Positions 5,293 to 40,976 of a stretch of DNA of 64,000 nucleotides are shown piece after piece. How positions within the stretch are numbered: position 1 is the first letter of the stretch; each line of letters starts with the position of its first letter. The position numbers and the translations under genes were made by a program. The notes below the pieces were generated by a model. The model saw only the letters and a list, made by a program, of their open reading frames with translations, did no database searches and was not told the origin of the DNA. The stretch is from Candidatus Methylacidithermus pantelleriae (lineage in GTDB: Bacteria > Verrucomicrobiota > Verrucomicrobiia > Methylacidiphilales > Methylacidiphilaceae), in assembly GCF_905250085.1 (NCBI RefSeq), contig NZ_CAJNOB010000034.1:1-64000 (forward strand). The letters are read 5' to 3'.

Positions 5293-6550
5293 CCAGCCTC
5301 CTTCCCTCGCGACAAAATGACCTACGATCGCAAGCCAAACAAGGCCAATCTTGCGAGGGCCAGGACAACACCCGGCCAAAGGATTGGGCTCTTCCTGGTT
5401 ACCGGGTCGCGGAACCCCTTCACGGCTGGCCAATCCATTCCTAGGGCAAGAGAGCTGGTTCACTTCATTGCCCCATGGCCGCAACAACCCTCCTGTCTCC
5501 ATTGGAAAAAATGGCCAGGGTTTCGGCTCGGCGTAGGGAAGGAAATGACACTGGCTTGGGGCGTTCTCTGTCAGGAGCAAGCTTGTCATGACCTTACTTT
5601 TATTTCATGCCTTGCCATCCGGGACCTGATGACTAGCCCCCTCGCTCGCGAGTTGGTTTGTTGGTGGTTGTGGCTGGCAGCGATTCTGTGGTTGCGATTC
5701 GAAGACTTGGGGGCAAACTTCGGCCCTCGTGCCCCGTTTCGGGAGAGATTTTTTGGGGATCTCACTGTGAGGAACCCCAGAGGGAAGACGGAGAGACGGC
5801 TCTAGTTCTCCATGGAGATTTTTCCAGTCCCTTGGCAGGAGGCCCCGTTACAAAGGATGGGACTCGAATCGTGGCCAACGATTGCGAGGCAATCCGTTAA
5901 AAAGACGCAACGAGCGATCCCTTCTTGAGGGAAGAACCTAAGAGCGTTCTCTTGGGTGGGCAGAAACCCAAGCTTTCGCTCTAGCCGTTGGAGAGTAAAC
6001 AGGTAATCGGTGCCAACCATTTTGGATGACCGATCCCTTCACGAAGGGAGCGCACTTTTGGCGGCCCATCTCGACCATTGAGTCGCTTCTTGGACCTCTG
6101 CTCAGGCTCTGACGCATACCGATGGCCGCGCGCGGGGAAGTAGTGGAAGAAGGAGCCAAGCGTCATGCATTTGTCGCGATTACCCTAGGAGAGCGGGCAC
6201 TTCTTGGGTCTTAGCTCAATGAGTAGGGCGCTTCGCCCGGCAGCTGGCTACTCGAAGGGAGTAATTCTCCACAATGAGGCCCGGTAAAGGGGGAGAAAGT
6301 CCCCAAGCCAAAAGCCTGCATGCCCGGCCTGAGACCAGAGGCGGCTTTATAGGGGCGGGCACGGCAAAGAAGGACTAGATTCGTTTAAAATGCGTAATCG
6401 GCAACGAAAAGGGCTAGGTAAGCCTAAATCACGTCTCAAAGAGAAAGGAAACCCGGCTCTTCCGAGCTAGGTAAGTCTTCCTTATACCTCAGTCGTCCAC
6501 TGCTATTAGCTTTTGGTTGACTTTCGAGCAAAAATTCTTAGGAATTCTTA
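5293..6550. other. Gene-poor stretch with tRNA-like fragments
   Basis: About 1.25 kb with no protein I recognise; open frames here have no domain, no good start context and arginine/proline-rich shadow composition. The segment 6208-6235 (GGGTCTTAGCTCAATGAG, then TAGGGCGC) resembles a tRNA 5' half, with a GCTC...GGGC D-stem-like pairing. The complement of about 5853-5915 contains a TTCGAGTCC T-loop-like piece. Neither folds into a complete cloverleaf. The last ~70 bp hold the promoter and an AGGA ribosome site of the peroxidase gene. Confidence 0.5.
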
Positions 6551-7660
6551 ATGCCTTCGGAGAGAAAGCTACTGTGTAGCAAAGTCTTTTCTCTCGAACG
6601 AAAACCCGTGTGTCGAAAAGCGACAGGGCTAGAAGCTGGACTCCTAGCTCTTTGTTTCCTCCTGGGATTTTCCCTACGCGCCTTTACTCAACAACAAGAG
6701 CCCCTAACTCCGGAAAAAGGCCGGGCCATTTTTGGCATCCTTCCGAGGGTCGCCGATAATCCCTCCAACCCGGTGACGCCGGAAAAGGTTACCTTGGGGA
6801 AAAGCCTCTTTTTTGATCCCAGGCTTTCCAAAAGCGGGGTCGTTAGCTGCAATAGCTGCCACAATCTGGCTGCAGGTGGGGTCGATGGCCTGCCAACATC
6901 GGTGGGCCACCTTTGGCAGATTGGTCCCAGGAATGCGCCTACGGTCTTTAACGCTGCTCTTCAGGTGGCGCAGTTCTGGGATGGGAGGGCCAAGGATGTG
7001 GAAGAACAGGCAAAGGGTCCCCTGGTCAATCCTAAGGAAATGGCCGCAACCCCAGAGCTTATTGTAGCCCGGCTTAAGAGTATTTCCTTCTACCAGGAAA
7101 GCTTCCGAAAGGCTTTTCCAGGGGATAAGGATCCGGTGACGTTTGAGAATACGGCTCGGGCGATCGCTGCTTTCGAACGAACCCTTCTTACCCCTTCCCG
7201 GTTCGATCGTTTCTTGCAGGGGGACGAGCAGGCACTTTCCCCTGAGGAGAAGGTAGGACTTGAGACTTTTGTTCAGGTTGGCTGCATAAGCTGTCATAAC
7301 GGCGTAGGGGTGGGGGGAGGAATGTTTCAAAAGTTTGGGATTTTCCGAAAACCGGATGGGTTCAAAGATCTGGGGCGGTACGAAGTCACGAAAAACGAGG
7401 CCGATCGTTACGTCTTTAAGGTTCCTTCCCTTCGAAACGTAGCGCTAACGGCTCCGTACTTTACCGACGGCTCCGTATGGGATCTTGGACAGGCGGTCCG
7501 CATCATGGCGGACGTACAGCTCAATCGCAAGCTTTCAGACGTGGAAGTAAAAAGAATTGTCTCTTTCCTTAAAAGCCTAACCGCAGACCCGCGCCCCGAA
7601 ATGACTCTTCCCACTCTCCCAGCTTCGACACCGCAAACTCCCAAGCCGCAACTTCAGTAA
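6551..7660 (+). CDS. Diheme cytochrome c peroxidase (MauG/CcpA family)
   Basis: A 369-residue periplasmic enzyme reducing hydrogen peroxide with electrons from c-type cytochromes. An N-terminal export signal is visible: a basic stretch, then LEAGLLALCFLLGFSLRAF, ending near residue 46. Two heme-attachment sites are present: CNSCH at 100-104 and CISCH at 245-249. Family segments LGKSLFFDPRLS, RNAPTVFNAA and FWDGRA are also visible, as is a C-terminal RNVALTAPYFTDGS segment typical of the peroxidase domain. AGGA lies seven bases before the ATG. The gene stands alone. The N-terminal leader is unusually long, and translation might start a little further in. Maturation would need the cytochrome c assembly machinery, to which the ResB-like gene near 55 kb belongs. 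Confidence 0.93.
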   Translation: MPSERKLLCSKVFSLERKPVCRKATGLEAGLLALCFLLGFSLRAFTQQQEPLTPEKGRAIFGILPRVADNPSNPVTPEKVTLGKSLFFDPRLSKSGVVSCNSCHNLAAGGVDGLPTSVGHLWQIGPRNAPTVFNAALQVAQFWDGRAKDVEEQAKGPLVNPKEMAATPELIVARLKSISFYQESFRKAFPGDKDPVTFENTARAIAAFERTLLTPSRFDRFLQGDEQALSPEEKVGLETFVQVGCISCHNGVGVGGGMFQKFGIFRKPDGFKDLGRYEVTKNEADRYVFKVPSLRNVALTAPYFTDGSVWDLGQAVRIMADVQLNRKLSDVEVKRIVSFLKSLTADPRPEMTLPTLPASTPQTPKPQLQ

Positions 7661-10506
7661 GGCCGTGTTTTTTGGCGAGCCGAAGTGGGGCGAAAACCGG
7701 CACTGTTGCGCAGCTAGCCTCCTGTTTGGCACGGATCGAGGACTCTTTCTTGGGATCTGGGAGGTTTCTGGCACTCGGCGGGCAGGAGCCGCCACGATGC
7801 TTTAGGCAAGAAGGGTCGTCCGATCATAGCAGTCAATCTCAAGAGAACCAGAATGGGGAACTCCTCCTACCCATGGGCCATCCCAACCACCTTCGCGCTC
7901 AAGCTTCCGCGTGCGCGCCAAAAAGGCTGGCTCACCCCAGTAGGGAAAGCTGCTATTGAAAGTATGGGCTTGGAGGCAAGAGAGCGGCCCAACCGACCCG
8001 GCTCCCCACTGTGAGCGGATCGGCTTTTTGGGCGATCGTCTTGAGGAGTCTCGGCCAATACTTCCTTCGGATAAGCCACCCGGCTTTCCCGCCGGGCGCG
8101 ATCGCTCAAGAACTAGGCCACTTTCCTCCGGCAATGAGAGAAGATCGAACCCCATTGCCTTCCACCTTTATCAGTTGACTCCGGTCGGTAAGCCAAAGCT
8201 CCCGATCTTTTGGGAAGATTCGGACAATCGCTCTTGGAGCCTGGCTTCTTCTTAGCTCAAGTGAGATACGCAAGCTCTTTGCGCTTTCAGCGCTTCCCAG
8301 TTCGACCGGCTTTTTTCCTTCCTCCATCAAAGACAAGGGTTTTTTCTTCGATCCCCAACCGTGGTTGGAGCCTCACGCGCAACCCGAGAAGCGTCTTCGA
8401 ATTCGCCCGGTTTGCCCGCAGAATCTTTACTCTTTTTACTCTCCAAGAAAATCGAGACTCCTTGAGCATGGGTCGGAATCAAGAACAAGCACTGGGTGCC
8501 AGTCCCCTCGCTGATCCCGGCTCTCTCCATAACGCGCAAGTCCCTTCGGGCCTTGCCTCCCTCAAACTACACACGGGAGAGATGATAAAGCACAAGACCC
8601 GTTACCCCCCGAGCGAATCCTCGCGATAGCGCTTTTTCCAGCTAGCTCTAAAACCCCGTTTCGCCCATTCAATCGCCCGGTATAGCTCCTTTTCCTCGAA
8701 GTGGCTTTTTTCCTCCACCCCGTGGAGTTCCACTAATACCCTCCCCCTGGCTTTGTTCCCGAACGGACACTGCGAGGAAGGAAAAAAGAGTCCACCCCAA
8801 AAAAGATCGCTTGAACAAACCGCCGCTTGCGCTCCCATCTTATCCCTGGAAGCATTTCCTCTTGGACCCCTGCTGTAAGCCCTCCCGGGGTACAAGCTTC
8901 TGCCCTTTGAAGCCTGTTGGAACAACCTCTTGCCTGTCGACCGGGAGCCGCCTCCCATTGGCCCAATTCCTTCTCTTTCCCTCTTTCGCCACGCGGTAGG
9001 ACCGGTGAACCCCCCGACCTGCCGGCACACCTTCCCGTTGCGATCGGCACAAGCCTCCTGGGCACAAATGTGCAACTTACAAGAGACATGATCCGACTTT
9101 AGAAATGGTTTACCTTTAATTCCCTAACGTATCGACCCTACGCGCGTTTTTATAAGTCCTGCACTTGCAACTCCAAAGGTCAAAAGCCTAAGGAAGTTAC
9201 GTTAGCCAAAATGCGGAGTCGGGTAAGGCCCAAGAGCGCTCAGCACAGTTGTGCTCGCTCTTGACTTCATTCCGAGCTTTCCTTTGGCCTGGAGAAAGAG
9301 CCGTACCGCCTCGCCGATTACCACGCGTTTCGCGTTGGCTCTTGGGAGTATTCTCGAGCCAGGGCGGCATCGAGAAGGGAAACTGCGTAGGGAGCGAAAA
9401 GGCCTCGGGCCGCCGGATACTGTTCCACCTCCCCGGCGAGGCACGCCAGTCGCGGCACTGCCGAAAGAAAAAAGTTGCTCTCGAAGAGCTCCGGTGTCCC
9501 TCTTGGGCTTTGAGCTTGCTTTGAAACGCCTGCCTGTACAACCGCCCCTCGATCTGCCGGAATACCTCGTAGCAAAAGAAGTTGCCGTCCGGAGGGTGGC
9601 GGCCAAGCCCAATCGGCTTTGCCAAAGCTCGGACCCACGACGGAATGATTCTCTTCATGGGCAGGCGGGTGACGGGGTTTCTCAAGAGCCGTGCGCAGCG
9701 GGTACTGTTGACCCTATCAGATCTGCCAGCCATGGGCCGCCCCTGGGTTTGCGATCTCTCCGACGAAGTCGATGATGAGCAAGAAGCTCTAGCATCGGGA
9801 AAGCCGCTTGAACTTGCGCAACAAAATGCACAAAAGATGCCAGTTAGGAGGGACGCTTTCGGCGCCGGCCGGCTGGGGATTCGGGAACGCTTACTCTAGC
9901 GACCATAGAACTCTCCTTGCAAGGTTACGTTTGGGTCCCACTGTTGACTTGGGCTACAGGGGCTTTTGGGTTAAAGCTCGACTGGGTCCTACGACTGGCC
10001 GAACTGCCGTCCCAGCGGAGGGGTGGAGCGTGTGCCATCCTTTCTCTTCTTTGACTCGCCCAACTTCCGAAAGCGCTAACTCCCGAGAGATAGCCCCTAC
10101 GCTTCTGATTTCCCAAAAAGAAAGATTCTTCGGAAAGTTCTCAGTGTGCGAGCTCGCCTAGTAGCACAGACACTCTTACCTACTGCACTCTAGGGATACG
10201 TTTTGTCTACGGTATAACTCCAGCCAGTAAACCGGGGAGCTGTGATCAGCCAGCTGCAAGAGAGGGTATGCGGGTAGAGCAATCGAGCTCTTCTGGAATC
10301 TAGCCCTCAACGGGATGAGTCCCGAGATCCATTGCCACTAGTGGATATGTTGGAGGGAACTCCTCCCCACGCATCTGGGCTCCCCGGTCACGAAATCCGT
10401 TGGAGGACCCAAAAGCGAAAGCACGCGGTCCAACCTGTATTCTTGCGGCAAAGAAAAGGACCGGTGGTAAACTGTGAGTGTCCCATTTGACGGAGCAGGT
10501 AGGCCC
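7661..10506. other. Long gene-poor stretch, apparently decayed sequence
   Basis: About 2.8 kb without a gene I can support. Several frames stay open for 100-180 codons on both strands (for example complement 9197-9733 and complement 8602-9075), but they overlap each other. They show no domain, no conserved motif and no proper start context, as expected from GC-rich non-coding DNA. I checked for transposase, TnpB zinc-finger, RNase P, tmRNA and signal-recognition-particle RNA patterns and saw none convincing. Confidence 0.5.
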
Positions 10507-35219: not shown

Positions 35220-36977
35220 ATGGTCGTAGAAAACGAGCTGGTCCGGCTGCTGGGAGAAAGGAAAGACTGGCATCAGAACGGGGTGAGCGTCCCTGCGATT
35301 CCGGAAAGCGCCCCTTTCAGCGCCGAAGAGCGTGCGTGGATTAACGGTTACCTGGCCGGGGCTTGGATTGGTTCTCTCCTCTCTAGCCGCGATTACCCAA
35401 AGCGTTCTCCTCGAGAGGAGCTCCCTGGGGATCGGGGTGATGCCTACCTCACGATTCTTTACGCTAGCCAGACGGGCAACACGGAATCGCTGGCGAAACG
35501 CCTGGCCGAAAAAGCCCAAGAGAAAGGCTTGGCGGTCCGGCTCTATTCCATGTCGGCTTATCCCAGGGAACAGCTCCAGAAGGAGCGCTGGCTGGTGGCC
35601 ATGACGAGTACGTATGGCGACGGGGAGTTTCCGGATAATGGGGTTGGATTCTGGGAGTTTCTATCTTCCGACAAGGTCCCGAGGTTAGAAAAGCTCCACT
35701 ACGCTGTCTTAGCGCTCGGGGATTCCCACTATCCTCATTTTTGCCAGGCTGGTCGCAATCTCGATGAAAGGCTCGAAGAACTGGGAGCGCAACGAATGTG
35801 CCAAAGGGTGGATTGCGACGTCGATTTTGAAAGGCCTGCCAACCGCTGGATGGAGGAGGTCATTCAAACGCTCTTGGAAAGGATTCCCAGGGTGGAAGGG
35901 CCAGAGTTTCCCCAAGGCATCCAAGGGGAAAATGAGGGGCAGCTCACAACGGCGCGCGCAGCACGAGAGGATGTGAGCGGGAAGTATCACCGGAACCACC
36001 CTTTCCTGGCAACTGTGGTTCGAAATATCCCTCTGACAAGTCTCCAGGCCGGCAAGGAGACCCGTCATATCGAAATTTCGCTTGAGGGATCCGGGCTTAC
36101 CTATCTTTCAGGGGACGCGCTGGGAGTGTTTCCCAGAAACTGTCCCCTTTTGGTAACCGAAATTCTCGACGCGAAGGGATGGGACAAGGACAGCTGGGTA
36201 GTACTGCCTGGCGGGCAGTTGCTCGGTTTATGGGAGGCTCTTTGCTCCCATTTAGAGATCGCCAGGCTTAGTCGAGAGACCCTGGCGGCCTGCGGGTCCC
36301 CGCAAGAGCTGGTCGATGCCTGCAAGCCCTTAACGCCCAGGCTCTATTCCATTGCGTGCAGTCCGAAAGTTTATCCCCATGTGGTTCACTTGACGGTTGG
36401 CGTGGTTCGCTATTGGGACCGGGAGCGGCTTCGGAAAGGAGTAGCTTCGAGCTTTCTTGCCGAGCGAGCAGCCGAAGGCGCGCGCGTTCCCGTCTACGTT
36501 CACAGTAACCCCCGTTTCCGGCCCCCACCCGCAGAAGCGCCTCTCATTATGATTGGCCCTGGTACGGGGATTGCCCCTTTCCGTGCCTTTCTCCAAGAAA
36601 GGGAGGGAGAATCTCGCCCAGGTCCCAGTTGGCTTTTCTTTGGGGAATGGCATCGTGACGGGACGTTTTACTACCGGGAAGAAATTCAAAGGTGGGCCAA
36701 AATGGGGGTTGTGACGCGTTTGGATCTAGCGTTTTCCCGAGACCAAGAAGAGAAGTGCTACGTGTGGCATCGAATGTTGGAATCACGGAAAGACTTTTAT
36801 CGCTGGTTGCAAGAAGGAGCCTACGTGTATGTCTGCGGATCCCTCAATGTGGGCAGGGATGTAGAAAAGGCACTTGTGGAGATTTTCCGAACGGAGGGTG
36901 GGCTCAAGGAACCCGAGGCTCAAGCCCGTGTGAGCGAACTTAAGGAAACAGGCAGATATCGGAAGGATGTTTATTAA
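35220..36977 (+). CDS. CysJ-like NADPH flavoprotein reductase
   Basis: A 585-residue diflavin reductase of the sulfite-reductase-alpha type. The N-terminal helix segment FSAEERAWINGYLAGAWIG is as in CysJ. A flavodoxin domain binds FMN (YASQTGNTES 81-90; TSTYGDGEFPDN; LALGDSHYPHFC). The FAD domain carries RLYSIACS. The NADPH domain carries GPGTGIAPFRAFLQER and YVCGSLNVGRDVEKAL, and the C-terminus is RYRKDVY. It moves electrons from NADPH to a siroheme reductase. The NirA-type gene follows 89 bp downstream, so it is the likely partner. The NADPH-side motif reads CGSLNVGRD rather than CGDxxxMAKD. Confidence 0.93.
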   Translation: MVVENELVRLLGERKDWHQNGVSVPAIPESAPFSAEERAWINGYLAGAWIGSLLSSRDYPKRSPREELPGDRGDAYLTILYASQTGNTESLAKRLAEKAQEKGLAVRLYSMSAYPREQLQKERWLVAMTSTYGDGEFPDNGVGFWEFLSSDKVPRLEKLHYAVLALGDSHYPHFCQAGRNLDERLEELGAQRMCQRVDCDVDFERPANRWMEEVIQTLLERIPRVEGPEFPQGIQGENEGQLTTARAAREDVSGKYHRNHPFLATVVRNIPLTSLQAGKETRHIEISLEGSGLTYLSGDALGVFPRNCPLLVTEILDAKGWDKDSWVVLPGGQLLGLWEALCSHLEIARLSRETLAACGSPQELVDACKPLTPRLYSIACSPKVYPHVVHLTVGVVRYWDRERLRKGVASSFLAERAAEGARVPVYVHSNPRFRPPPAEAPLIMIGPGTGIAPFRAFLQEREGESRPGPSWLFFGEWHRDGTFYYREEIQRWAKMGVVTRLDLAFSRDQEEKCYVWHRMLESRKDFYRWLQEGAYVYVCGSLNVGRDVEKALVEIFRTEGGLKEPEAQARVSELKETGRYRKDVY

Positions 36978-37066
36978 AGAAAGGCTTATGGCCCCAAGGC
37001 CACAGGAACTTCTAGCGTACTTTGCCAACGGGAGCAAAGCCCGTTGAAAAGAAAGGAGAGCTTGCT

Positions 37067-38857
37067 ATGGAACTGGAAGCCAAGGGAAAAGCGTCGTCGG
37101 CTGTCGTCGACAAAGTAAAGGCTGGGATCGGAACGCTTCAGCCGGTACAAGAGCGCTATCTTCAAGGGTTTTTTGCCGGGCTTGCTGAGCGTGGAATCAG
37201 TTTTTGGGACGCTGTCTCTCAAGAGGCTTCCTTGGCCACTTCCCCTCCCGTGGAATCCCCGTCGCTCACCTTTGAGGAACGGGTGAAAAAGGAAGAGCAT
37301 CCTTTGGATTCCTATTACCGACTTTTGGAGCATGCGGAAGCGAACCGGGCTCCAGATCGAGAACATACGTTTCGCTTTAAATGGTACGGGCTTTTCTATC
37401 TTTCGCCCGTAAAGGAATCGTTCATGGCGCGGATTCGTATTCCTGCCGGGCAACTTCAAAGTTTTCAACTGCGTGAGATTGCAAAGATAGCCAAGGAGTT
37501 GACAACGGGATACATCCAGGTGACCACCCGTGCCAATATCCAGATCCGGTTGATTCAGGTTCGCGACGCGCCGGAAGTCTTGCGACGCCTTTCGTCTGTG
37601 GGATTGTATACTAGGGGTTCTGGGGCTGACAACATCCGGAATATTACTGCTCATGCGACGACCGGAATTGATCCCTATGAATGGATAGACGTATCCCCTT
37701 ACTGTCACAAGCTTGCTCATTTGATTCTTTCACAACGGGAATTTTATGACCTGCCGAGAAAATTTAATGTAGCGTTTGACGGGGGAGGACTGGTTCCGGT
37801 CGTAGAGGATACGAATGATATTGGTGTGCGGGCGGTGGGTGTAGGGACAGACACAGGTCAGCCGGAAGTTCTCTTTCGGATCCGGCTAGGAGGCGTAACC
37901 GGACATGGGAGTTTTGGAACGGATCTGGGCGTTTTGGTGGAACCGGATCGGATCGTTTCGGTAGTGGCGGCGCTCATTAAAGTGTATCTGAAAAACGGGG
38001 ATCGTTCGGACCGGCGGAAAGCTCGTGTAAAATATCTTTTGGAAAAGTGGGGTGTGGAACGCTATCTGCAGGAAACCGAGAAACTGCTTGGACATTCGCT
38101 TCGCCGGAGTCCTTTTCGGGAGGACGGAAGCTTTGAGGGAGAAGTCCGGAAAGAAAAGCCTTTCGTTGCGCATCCGCACATTGGCGTTCATCCCCAAAAA
38201 CAGCCGGGGTTTTACTATCTAGGGGTGGCTCTTCCGGTGGGACAGGTAACGGCAAACCAGCTATTACGATTGGCCGATCTGGCGGATCACTACGGCCAGG
38301 GAGAGGTTCGAACGACCGTGTGGCAAAATTTTCTCCTTCCTCATATCCCGGAAGGCTATGTGGAGACGGTTAAGAAAGCATTGGTAAAAATGGGACTTCA
38401 CTGGCAGCAAAGCCCGATTGCCAGTGGGGTCATTGCGTGTACAGGAAACCGGTACTGCAAGTATTCGAGCACGGATACCAAAGGGCATGCATTAGAGCTG
38501 GTTAAGCATTTAGAAAAACGGGTGAAGTTAGATCAGCCTGTGAATATCCATCTAACAGGATGCCCGAATTCTTGTGCCCAGCATTACATTGGGGACATTG
38601 GTTTATTGGGAGTGAAAGGTACGCTCGGGGGGAGCCAGGTGGAGGCGTATCATGTGTTTGTGGGAGGTGGTTTTGGAGAGCACCGAGCGCTTGGTAGGCA
38701 GCTTTTTTATTCCATTCCCAGTTCTGAACTTCCCCATCTGGTCGAAAGGATGCTCAAAGTGTATCTTGCCAAGCGGGAGCCGGGAGAGACGTTCCAAGCC
38801 TTTACTGCTCGTCACGATATCAATACCCTGCAACGACTCTTTAGCCAGGATGAATGA
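37067..38857 (+). CDS. NirA-type siroheme nitrite (or sulfite) reductase
   Basis: A 596-residue siroheme/[4Fe-4S] reductase. The cluster ligands are CTGNRYC (Cys458, Cys464) and GCPNSC (Cys499, Cys503). The ACTGNxxC form with downstream TDTKGHA is nearer to assimilatory nitrite reductases than to CysI. Two symmetric half-domains are visible (FMARIRIPAGQLQ and GFYYLGVALPVGQV starts). AGGAG sits eight bases before the ATG at 37067; an upstream ATG at 37022 in the same frame is less likely. An extra ~60-residue N-terminal region (VQERYLQGFFAGLAERG) precedes the reductase fold and resembles the CysJ N-terminal helix. Together with the flavoprotein it would reduce nitrite to ammonium at the cost of NADPH. 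Confidence 0.9.
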   Translation: MELEAKGKASSAVVDKVKAGIGTLQPVQERYLQGFFAGLAERGISFWDAVSQEASLATSPPVESPSLTFEERVKKEEHPLDSYYRLLEHAEANRAPDREHTFRFKWYGLFYLSPVKESFMARIRIPAGQLQSFQLREIAKIAKELTTGYIQVTTRANIQIRLIQVRDAPEVLRRLSSVGLYTRGSGADNIRNITAHATTGIDPYEWIDVSPYCHKLAHLILSQREFYDLPRKFNVAFDGGGLVPVVEDTNDIGVRAVGVGTDTGQPEVLFRIRLGGVTGHGSFGTDLGVLVEPDRIVSVVAALIKVYLKNGDRSDRRKARVKYLLEKWGVERYLQETEKLLGHSLRRSPFREDGSFEGEVRKEKPFVAHPHIGVHPQKQPGFYYLGVALPVGQVTANQLLRLADLADHYGQGEVRTTVWQNFLLPHIPEGYVETVKKALVKMGLHWQQSPIASGVIACTGNRYCKYSSTDTKGHALELVKHLEKRVKLDQPVNIHLTGCPNSCAQHYIGDIGLLGVKGTLGGSQVEAYHVFVGGGFGEHRALGRQLFYSIPSSELPHLVERMLKVYLAKREPGETFQAFTARHDINTLQRLFSQDE

Positions 38858-39794: not shown

Positions 39795-40976
39795 CTAGAC
39801 TCGAACCAGTCCGGAAATTCTCTCTAACAATTGCCGAAACTCTTCTTCGGTGAGCACTGGGATCAATCGAGATCTTTCCCACGATGCCGGAACCTCCGTC
39901 CAAGATCGGCATCCCTCATAGCTGGCGTGCCAGGGAATGCGGACCGGCGGGTCCGCACGAAAAACTCGAACGAAAAGGCAATGCACTCCCGGAACCGGTC
40001 CGCAGAAAAACTTTTCCCGCACGGTCTCAGTCGCCCAAATGTGAAAAGGGTCTAACGCTTCTACGTGATCCCAGTCCGTAAGGAAGGTCGCCTCTTTGAC
40101 TTCCGCTACATATTCCAGCAGAATTTCCGTCGGTTTTTCATCCCGGCTCACCCAGGAAGCAAATGGCGGTTTGAGCTTATCCTGTGCTTGATGGAAACGG
40201 GTGGGTAAAAGCCAAAAGCGTTGGTGTTGGACTTGGAAACCTCTTCGCAGCTCTCCTAGTCCTCCCTTTCGTAAAAGAAGCGATTGGTGACCACTGCCTA
40301 GCGCTTTGACAACAGCTTCCCACTCTTTGAAAGCCGGACAATTGACCGCTTCCCTTTTCACGGAGCTGGCAGGGATTGGCGGAACGGGGTCGCTTGCAAG
40401 AAAAAGCCCTCGGTTTTTAACCAGGTAAATCAAACCTGAGGCTACCGTAATGCAAAGGACGATCCACAGCAAGGGGGGTTGCACAAGTTGCAACCAGCGG
40501 CTAAGAAAACTCTCTTGCGCACCCAGTTCCTGCAAGGATTGGTCGGTCAAGCAAGCCAAAACAAAAAGGATCTGTGAAAGTGTTTTGTGTTTTCCTGCTT
40601 TTTCTGCTCCGAGCACAAACCCTCGCGTTGCTGCAAGCGTACGCAGACCTGTGATTAAAAATTCTCGACTCACGATGGCGACGACAACCCACATGGGTGC
40701 GTACCCGAGTTCGAGGAGCGCGATGAAGGCCGCCGTAATGAGGATTTTATCGGCCAAAGGATCCAGAAGCTTGCCAAGGTCGGACTCCCATTGGCGCGTT
40801 CGTGCGATCCATCCGTCCAGCCAGTCGGTGAGACTGCCAACCACAAAGATCCCGAGAGCGGCCGTTGCCTTGAAGGGCCACGAGGAACTGAGGTCGGCTA
40901 CAAACGCAGCCGAAAGGAGGAGCCGGCCGAGGGAAAGCTTATTGGGCAGCTGCCGGTCATGTGCGACACCCCCCAC
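39795..40976 (-). CDS. CDP-alcohol phosphatidyltransferase (PgsA-like) fused to a DUF1802 domain
   Basis: A 393-residue two-domain protein. Residues ~10-190 are a PgsA-type integral membrane enzyme with the complete signature Asp51-x2-Asp54-Gly55-x2-Ala58-Arg59-x8-Gly68-x3-Asp72-x3-Asp76, and several membrane helices. It presumably makes phosphatidylglycerophosphate. After a short Pro/Ser linker (~195-213), residues ~214-390 match the DUF1802 pattern: FKEWEAVVKAL, SLLLRKGGL, FWLLPTRFHQ and PFHIW, ending with a CRSW and a PVLTEEEF segment. DUF1802 proteins are usually separate and of unknown function. The start is a GTG at 40976 without a clear ribosome site. The junction is in one uninterrupted frame. 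Confidence 0.88.
   Translation of the reverse strand: MGGVAHDRQLPNKLSLGRLLLSAAFVADLSSSWPFKATAALGIFVVGSLTDWLDGWIARTRQWESDLGKLLDPLADKILITAAFIALLELGYAPMWVVVAIVSREFLITGLRTLAATRGFVLGAEKAGKHKTLSQILFVLACLTDQSLQELGAQESFLSRWLQLVQPPLLWIVLCITVASGLIYLVKNRGLFLASDPVPPIPASSVKREAVNCPAFKEWEAVVKALGSGHQSLLLRKGGLGELRRGFQVQHQRFWLLPTRFHQAQDKLKPPFASWVSRDEKPTEILLEYVAEVKEATFLTDWDHVEALDPFHIWATETVREKFFCGPVPGVHCLFVRVFRADPPVRIPWHASYEGCRSWTEVPASWERSRLIPVLTEEEFRQLLERISGLVRV

Follow-up and report, generated by a model that had tools for sequence, protein, structure and literature searches.

A stretch of 64,000 nucleotides from Candidatus Methylacidithermus pantelleriae (the window) carries on its minus strand one gene in which a PgsA-like phosphatidyltransferase is continued by a DUF1802 domain (Table 1). 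The fusion is real, as Pfam places both domains, CDP-OH_P_transf and DUF1802, inside a single open frame of 393 residues. With a probability of about one half, we read the protein as a working PGP synthase carrying a flexibly tethered, probably cytosolic module of predicted ASCH-like fold, which would bind a nucleotide or nucleic acid; the PgsA activity, the ligand binding, the cytosolic side and an effect on lipid synthesis are what we infer in this reading. Both families joined in the fusion were already known, and what is new here is the predicted fold of DUF1802 and its order-wide coupling to pgsA. A search of 5.39 million open-access papers, in which few subscription papers are covered, yielded a single passing mention of DUF1802 and nothing on a PgsA-DUF1802 fusion or on the DUF1802 fold.

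The PgsA half, the linker and the reading frame

An earlier note on this DNA had described the fusion from the letters alone, giving correct coordinates (39795-40976) and no strand. The plus strand carries stops over this interval, and the open frame is that of the minus strand. The domain search proposed there was run with the curated cut-offs for both domains applied to the window's protein, and it located CDP-OH_P_transf at residues 9-169 and DUF1802 at residues 215-384 of the same protein, which bears out the claim of a one-frame fusion. The note had also reckoned with a profile search missing DUF1802; the profile (PF08819) matched with 160 bits against a cut-off of 25, over profile positions 1-172 of 174.

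Table 1 Features of the fusion locus (positions in the window; residues of the fusion protein).
Feature	Position	Strand	Details
PgsA + DUF1802 fusion gene	39795..40976	minus	393 aa; uncertain start GTG 40976; stop TAG 39795-39797
CDP-alcohol phosphatidyltransferase (PgsA) domain, residues 9-169	40470..40952	minus	Pfam E 4.3e-37, 128.3 bits vs cut-off 22
Catalytic CDP-AP signature, residues 51-76	40749..40826	minus	D51xxD54G55xxA58R59x8G68xxxD72xxxD76, complete
Linker, ~residues 193-212, past last long helix and KNR	40341..40400	minus	mean pLDDT 50 at residues 201-210
DUF1802 domain, residues 215-384, predicted ASCH/PUA-like fold	39825..40334	minus	Pfam E 6.5e-47; AF2; ZmASCH match
Motif Q231-x4-R236-K-G-G-x-x-E242	40251..40286	minus	R, K, G, G, E in 56/56 aligned members, partly by construction (see text)
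Motif P258-T-x-x-H262	40191..40205	minus	H 56/56; P and T 55/56
Motif G355-C-R-S-W359	39900..39914	minus	G, C, W 56/56; S 53/56
DJ-1/PfpI family gene, 199 aa	39192..39791	minus	Pfam 142.6 bits; TIGR01383 167 bits vs cut-off 131.25

PgsA enzymes convert CDP-diacylglycerol and glycerol-3-phosphate to PGP with release of CMP, and DxxDGxxARx8GxxxDxxxD is the signature of CDP-alcohol phosphotransferases. All eight signature residues are present in the fusion, in agreement with the earlier note, and are invariant in 14 of 14 aligned fusions. The fusion protein reached 122.9 bits with the NCBIfam pgsA model TIGR00560 (cut-off 109.1) and 75.8 with the cardiolipin synthase model NF053678 (cut-off 240). 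In the full-length AlphaFold2 model (42 sequences, mean pLDDT 90.7) residues 6-187 form six long helices, and Foldseek matched this model to the PGP synthase structure 7drj with E 2.8e-9 and 31% identity. Signature, helices, profile score and structural match are thus shared with PgsA (TIGR00560; 7drj/7drk), whereas the TIGR00560 model and 7drj comprise only ~185-190 residues and the fusion adds a further domain of ~190 residues.

The window's assembly (2,459,655 bases in 71 contigs) encodes three CDP-OH_P_transf proteins. As the fusion is the only one of them to pass the TIGR00560 cut-off, it is, judged by sequence, probably the principal PGP synthase of the cell. The third protein is PssA. 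The genome's second PgsA-like gene (L040:1501-2130) stays below the pgsA cut-off with 91.4 bits (TIGR00560); it is flanked, as judged by eye, by glutamyl-tRNA-synthetase-like and GTPase-like genes, and its product may be another phosphatidyltransferase.

The pTM of 0.62 of the full-length model indicates that the arrangement of the domains is not confident. With a low-confidence linker between two well-folded domains, the model argues for a flexible tether and not for a packed unit. The linker differs in length and sequence among the fusions, being long and Pro/Ala-rich in the genus f86g205 (families and genera are designated here by f and g numbers). Since KNR follows the last long helix, the positive-inside rule would place the C-terminus of the fusion probably in the cytosol. 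Like the fusion, IPCT-DIPPS (4mnd) and AF2299 (4o6m), both among the Foldseek matches, combine a CDP-AP membrane domain with a soluble domain. Their extra domain is presumably N-terminal, cytidylyltransferase-like and of nucleotide-related role, whereas that of the fusion is C-terminal and predicted to be ASCH-like.

The start codon GTG 40976 is uncertain: no evident Shine-Dalgarno stretch was seen by eye at this GTG, and the N-termini of the relatives diverge ahead of an LPNQL-like stretch. A promoter scan of the fusion locus returned no promoter-like site on the minus strand, and a terminator scan returned one terminator-like site on this strand, within the fusion gene, terminators not being above chance. 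Three bases past the stop codon of the fusion the DJ-1 gene starts, whose position and family (TIGR01383 above cut-off) confirm what had been noted before, and which is probably co-transcribed with the fusion gene. Among the 48 other loci of the order examined, 18 have a DJ-1 relative after DUF1802, none of them in f1g2, f82 or f87. One g3 genome, assembled as a single contig, has serially overlapping ORFs for pgsA (7296-7901), DUF1802 (6704-7303) and DJ-1 (6120-6707) (L238:6120-7901, minus strand), arranged as if translationally coupled. Elsewhere in the window, at 35220-38857, an adjacent pair of plus-strand ORFs resembles by eye a sulfite-reductase flavoprotein and hemoprotein.

Predicted fold and conserved residues of DUF1802

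The window's genome contains a single DUF1802 domain, the one in the fusion. Three motifs stand out in the alignment of 56 members (Table 1). That RKGGxxE is invariant results in part from how the rows were chosen, as 36 of the 56 were collected by scanning for the pattern [LIV][IL]LRKGGIxE; H262, G355, C356 and W359 lie outside this pattern. The position of Q231 is occupied by Gln in 53 of the 56 members and that of R236 by Arg in all of them. The 16 copies from f87, which were found by profile, keep RKAGxRE, PTxYH and GCRSW.

The AlphaFold2 model of the DUF1802 domain (56 sequences) had a mean pLDDT of 93.3 and a pTM of 0.89. When it was compared with the PDB by Foldseek, all six matches at E<=0.001 were ZmASCH (probability 1.00, best E 2.2e-4), the TM-scores being modest (0.45-0.48 by query length; 0.46/0.58 with an rmsd of 9.5 over 184 columns). 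The full-length model matched ZmASCH as well (E 1.8e-3). By VIA-align, ZmASCH aligned over 126 residues with an rmsd of 3.2 and a Z of 10.0, which is above the Z of 7-8 typically reached by models without a clear match, if not far above it. Mouse CXorf40A (Z 9.5), TTHA0113 (9.4), human EOLA1 (9.1), TRIP4 (~8) and YqfB (7.6) followed, and Lon-N, EVE and YTH proteins came next with Z about 4 to 5. The fold of DUF1802 is therefore predicted, on the strength of these models, to be an ASCH/PUA-like beta-barrel.

Sequence comparison gave no such match. The Pfam ASCH profile (PF04266) matched none of the 56 members at E<=1, and hhalign of DUF1802 with five single ASCH proteins, a weak test, returned no match. 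Searched by sequence against solved structures, the DUF1802 alignment gave chance matches only (best E 0.16), PHROGs gave scattered single members (best E 0.048), and the viral structure library had no match at E<=0.001, its best hits (2e-3) being unnamed proteins of which some are annotated as ASCH. What DUF1802 has in common with the ASCH proteins ZmASCH, EOLA1/CXorf40A, TTHA0113, TRIP4 and YqfB is, besides the predicted fold (Z 7.6-10.0), a K/Q-x4-R pattern: Lys-x4-Arg occurs near the chain start in six of seven Pfam-ASCH proteins read (eight loci fetched; two of the six near-identical), and its counterpart in DUF1802 is Gln-x4-Arg past the first helix, the Lys being replaced by Gln in 53 of 56 members. 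DUF1802 differs from these proteins by its own motifs RKGGxxE, PTxxH and GCxSW and by a C-terminal helix that falls outside most of the structural alignments.

RNA, DNA and modified bases are reported ligands of ASCH/PUA-like domains, some of which are catalytic (PMC5615036, PMC6972931, PMC7641849); ZmASCH binds nucleic acid and cleaves single-stranded RNA, with Tyr47, Lys53 and Ser128 in its cleft (PMC5615036). A shared fold alone does not establish function. The predicted ASCH/PUA-like fold is nevertheless a stronger clue to the role of DUF1802 than the fusion, which by itself is a weak one.

Fused and split pairs within and outside the order

DUF1802 was found in 50 of the 62 genomes of the window's order, which we take to be Methylacidiphilales, a little-studied group with acidophilic methane oxidizers among its members, including 13 of the 13 genomes of the window's family (own genome counted), of which g2 and g3 are presumably Methylacidimicrobium and Methylacidiphilum. 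The junction was examined in 49 of the 50 positive genomes (G428 was left out). In 48 of these 49 loci pgsA lies directly upstream of DUF1802, be it fused or split. Fused loci number 14 (own, three in f2, one in f85 and nine in f86), and in all 14 both domains were detected by Pfam at E<=0.001 and TIGR00560 at E<=1e-5. Fusion extends to every genome of f2 (3/3) and f86g205 (8/8), while within the window's family only the window's genome, the one g1 genome examined, is fused and the 12 others (g2, g3) are split. The single exception, in f83 (G398, L089/L235), has no pgsA within ~8 kb and a close match on a different contig.

In the remaining 34 loci pgsA stands immediately upstream of a separate DUF1802 gene. 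Measured from the fitting start codon closest to the pgsA stop, the ends overlap in 31 of these pairs, by 4 nt (16 in f87, three in f82), 8 nt (five in f1g3) or 53 nt (seven in f1g2), and the three split pairs of f86 have gaps of 4 nt (two) or of 24-93 nt depending on the start (one). For the 53-nt overlaps (L007-L012, L014), in which the two genes use different frames, programmed frameshifting was considered and dropped because a conserved TTG start, preceded within 25 nt by AAGGAG, is present in all seven. In one draft genome (G001, L013/L014) DUF1802 is split into two frames, perhaps by an assembly error. Three contigs titled Bacteroidetes, Betaproteobacteria and Akkermansia (L091, L095, L097) bear the pgsA-DUF1802 arrangement of the window's order; they are probably mistitled or come from mixed bins.

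A DUF1802 match was absent in all seven genomes of f84 (completeness 77-95%), in four of 21 genomes of f87 and in the single f81 genome, the latter two groups being mostly incomplete assemblies. A close PgsA was present in four of the six f84 genomes searched, the remaining two having a weak relative only. Since f84 is without DUF1802 and yet retains a close PgsA in these four, PgsA does not seem to need the DUF1802 domain.

A PgsA tree was built for 38 of the 48 paired loci, with 10 of the 16 f87 rows omitted, and the fused and split states require at least four changes on it. They would fit one early fusion followed by three later splits, the basal families f87 and f82 being split; given the long branches of this tree, independent fusions may be the alternative history. 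The DUF1802 tree (37 rows of the order and nine others; L014 and the same ten f87 rows omitted) was poorly resolved, and the order's copies do not form one clade in it, which counts against simple vertical descent of the domain.

In wider samples DUF1802 occurred in 42 of 387 genomes of the phylum (seven of the 42 belonging to the order), in 38 of 146 cyanobacterial genomes and in six of 398 from Bacillota; phage records gave none, and plasmid records one Paenibacillus replicon. We inspected 103 further loci, namely 23 of the 35 non-order phylum matches (1.5 kb flanks) and the best 80 of 581 named-genome loci (flanks <=6 kb), the latter being biased towards close relatives. A PgsA-like match near DUF1802 was obtained in nine of the 103, and the same nine came up with a second PgsA probe. 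Eight of them are apparently order loci already counted, judged by identities, lengths or coordinates, with some titles doubtful; the ninth, L161, is a 34% match ~1.6 kb away. The 95 loci apparently outside the order, which include those from the best 80 of 581 and some contigs ending near DUF1802, therefore hold this one weak match. In another set of 35 loci pgsA lay within 1.5 kb only in L176, whose coordinates are those of G417, a genome of the order, and the five Bacillota loci L214-L218 showed no pgsA near DUF1802. Scanned with flanks of 1.5-6 kb, some of them cut by contig ends, the loci from other Verrucomicrobiota, Cyanobacteria, planctomycetes and Bacillota showed no pgsA beside DUF1802 apart from the weak L161 match. 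In the best 80 of 581 named-genome loci each recurrent neighbour (simple ORF filter; by eye Maf-like, PHP-like, pantothenate-kinase-like and acyltransferase-like) appeared in 11 loci at most, so that there is no constant partner. Free-standing DUF1802 (PF08819) has the family and the motifs in common with the fused domain; outside the order it is not joined to pgsA, with no clear pgsA nearby in the scanned loci.

A single order thus seems to have the pgsA-DUF1802 pairing as its trait. Because pgsA is nearly absent beside DUF1802 in the loci scanned elsewhere, the tie to membrane-lipid synthesis, offered before as a functional clue to DUF1802, holds inside the order (48/49 loci) but not as a general clue. 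The accompanying statement that DUF1802 is normally free-standing is mostly right, with exceptions among the Cyanobacteria: in 23 of the 146 genomes the match lies within a frame of 464-524 codons. In the one long frame that was read (L205:553-2034, minus strand) a part resembling restriction endonucleases (Mrr_cat, E 0.029, below cut-off) comes after DUF1802, and the adjoining gene matches AAA weakly (E 0.028, likewise below cut-off). Such a nuclease-linked form supports a nucleic-acid role for DUF1802. Its translation is without the RKGG motif, hence the two DUF1802 forms may differ in function.

A strong rival to the tethered module is tight co-expression with an incidental link, in which DUF1802, kept by the order in one translationally coupled operon with pgsA, would act on RNA or nucleotides in the cytosol independently of PgsA, the stop codon between the genes being lost and regained without much effect. 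This would agree with the 34 of 48 adjacent pairs that are separate genes, 31 with overlapping ends, with the at least four state changes on the PgsA tree and the variable linkers, and with the loci compared outside the order (best 80 of 581), where DUF1802 has no constant neighbour and no clear pgsA nearby. However, it leaves the adjacency in 48 of 49 loci unexplained, and the fused form persists throughout f2 (3/3) and, with long Pro/Ala-rich linkers, f86g205 (8/8). We consider it a real, if tentative, possibility.

Possible roles of the fused domain

In the preferred reading of a tethered module, the PgsA half would make PGP and release CMP, as its family does, and the conserved polar residues of the DUF1802 half would most likely serve to bind a nucleotide or nucleic acid. 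The fusion would keep DUF1802 at the membrane in a fixed ratio to PgsA, where it could serve as a membrane-tethered reader or regulate lipid synthesis through a nucleotide signal. A more specific idea, which we regard as rather unlikely, is that cytidine nucleotides or (modified) RNA near the membrane are read by the ASCH-like domain, which in this way sets the activity or location of PgsA.

Less likely still, DUF1802 might be catalytic on CMP or another cytidine compound, in a YqfB-like manner, and clear or salvage the product of PgsA. The fold match to YqfB (Z 7.6) is consistent with this, the conserved polar set R, K, E, H and C/S could form an active site, and other CDP-alcohol phosphotransferases (4mnd, 4o6m) carry soluble extra domains, presumably of the nature given above. 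YqfB hydrolyses N4-acetylcytidine with Lys21, Thr24, Arg26 and Glu74 in the active site, Lys21 and Thr24 being essential (PMC6972931). In a register deduced from spacing, Lys21 and Thr24 correspond to Gln26 and Ile/Leu29 of the DUF1802 domain, and only Arg26 is kept, as Arg31. Catalysis is thus disfavoured, because two essential residues appear to be replaced; moreover, in the loci scanned outside the order DUF1802 has no tie to PgsA. A defence or restriction module, with DUF1802 reading modified nucleic acid and PgsA as a mere membrane anchor, would recall the restriction-endonuclease-like part and the neighbouring weak-AAA gene of L205, both below cut-off, but Pfam finds no nuclease in the fusion or the neighbouring DJ-1 gene, none of the 56 members is matched by PADLOC at E<=1 and the PgsA signature is intact, all of which makes this reading highly improbable. 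An assembly or sequencing artefact, a concern raised from the outset and encouraged by the window's genome being the only fused one in its family against 12 split, can be dismissed for the architecture in view of 13 other fused loci in f2 (3), f85 (1) and f86 (9), among them the one-contig G084 and the 9-contig G399.

With these results DUF1802 gains a predicted ASCH/PUA-like fold and a testable class of ligands, and PgsA appears with a soluble domain that stays joined or translationally coupled to it in several families of one order. Were the domain to sense RNA or a nucleotide, the RNA or nucleotide state would be directly linked to phospholipid synthesis. Should the more specific idea hold, a sensor would sit in the first committed enzyme of phosphatidylglycerol synthesis, and the RNA and nucleotide state would be linked to the membrane make-up in this order.
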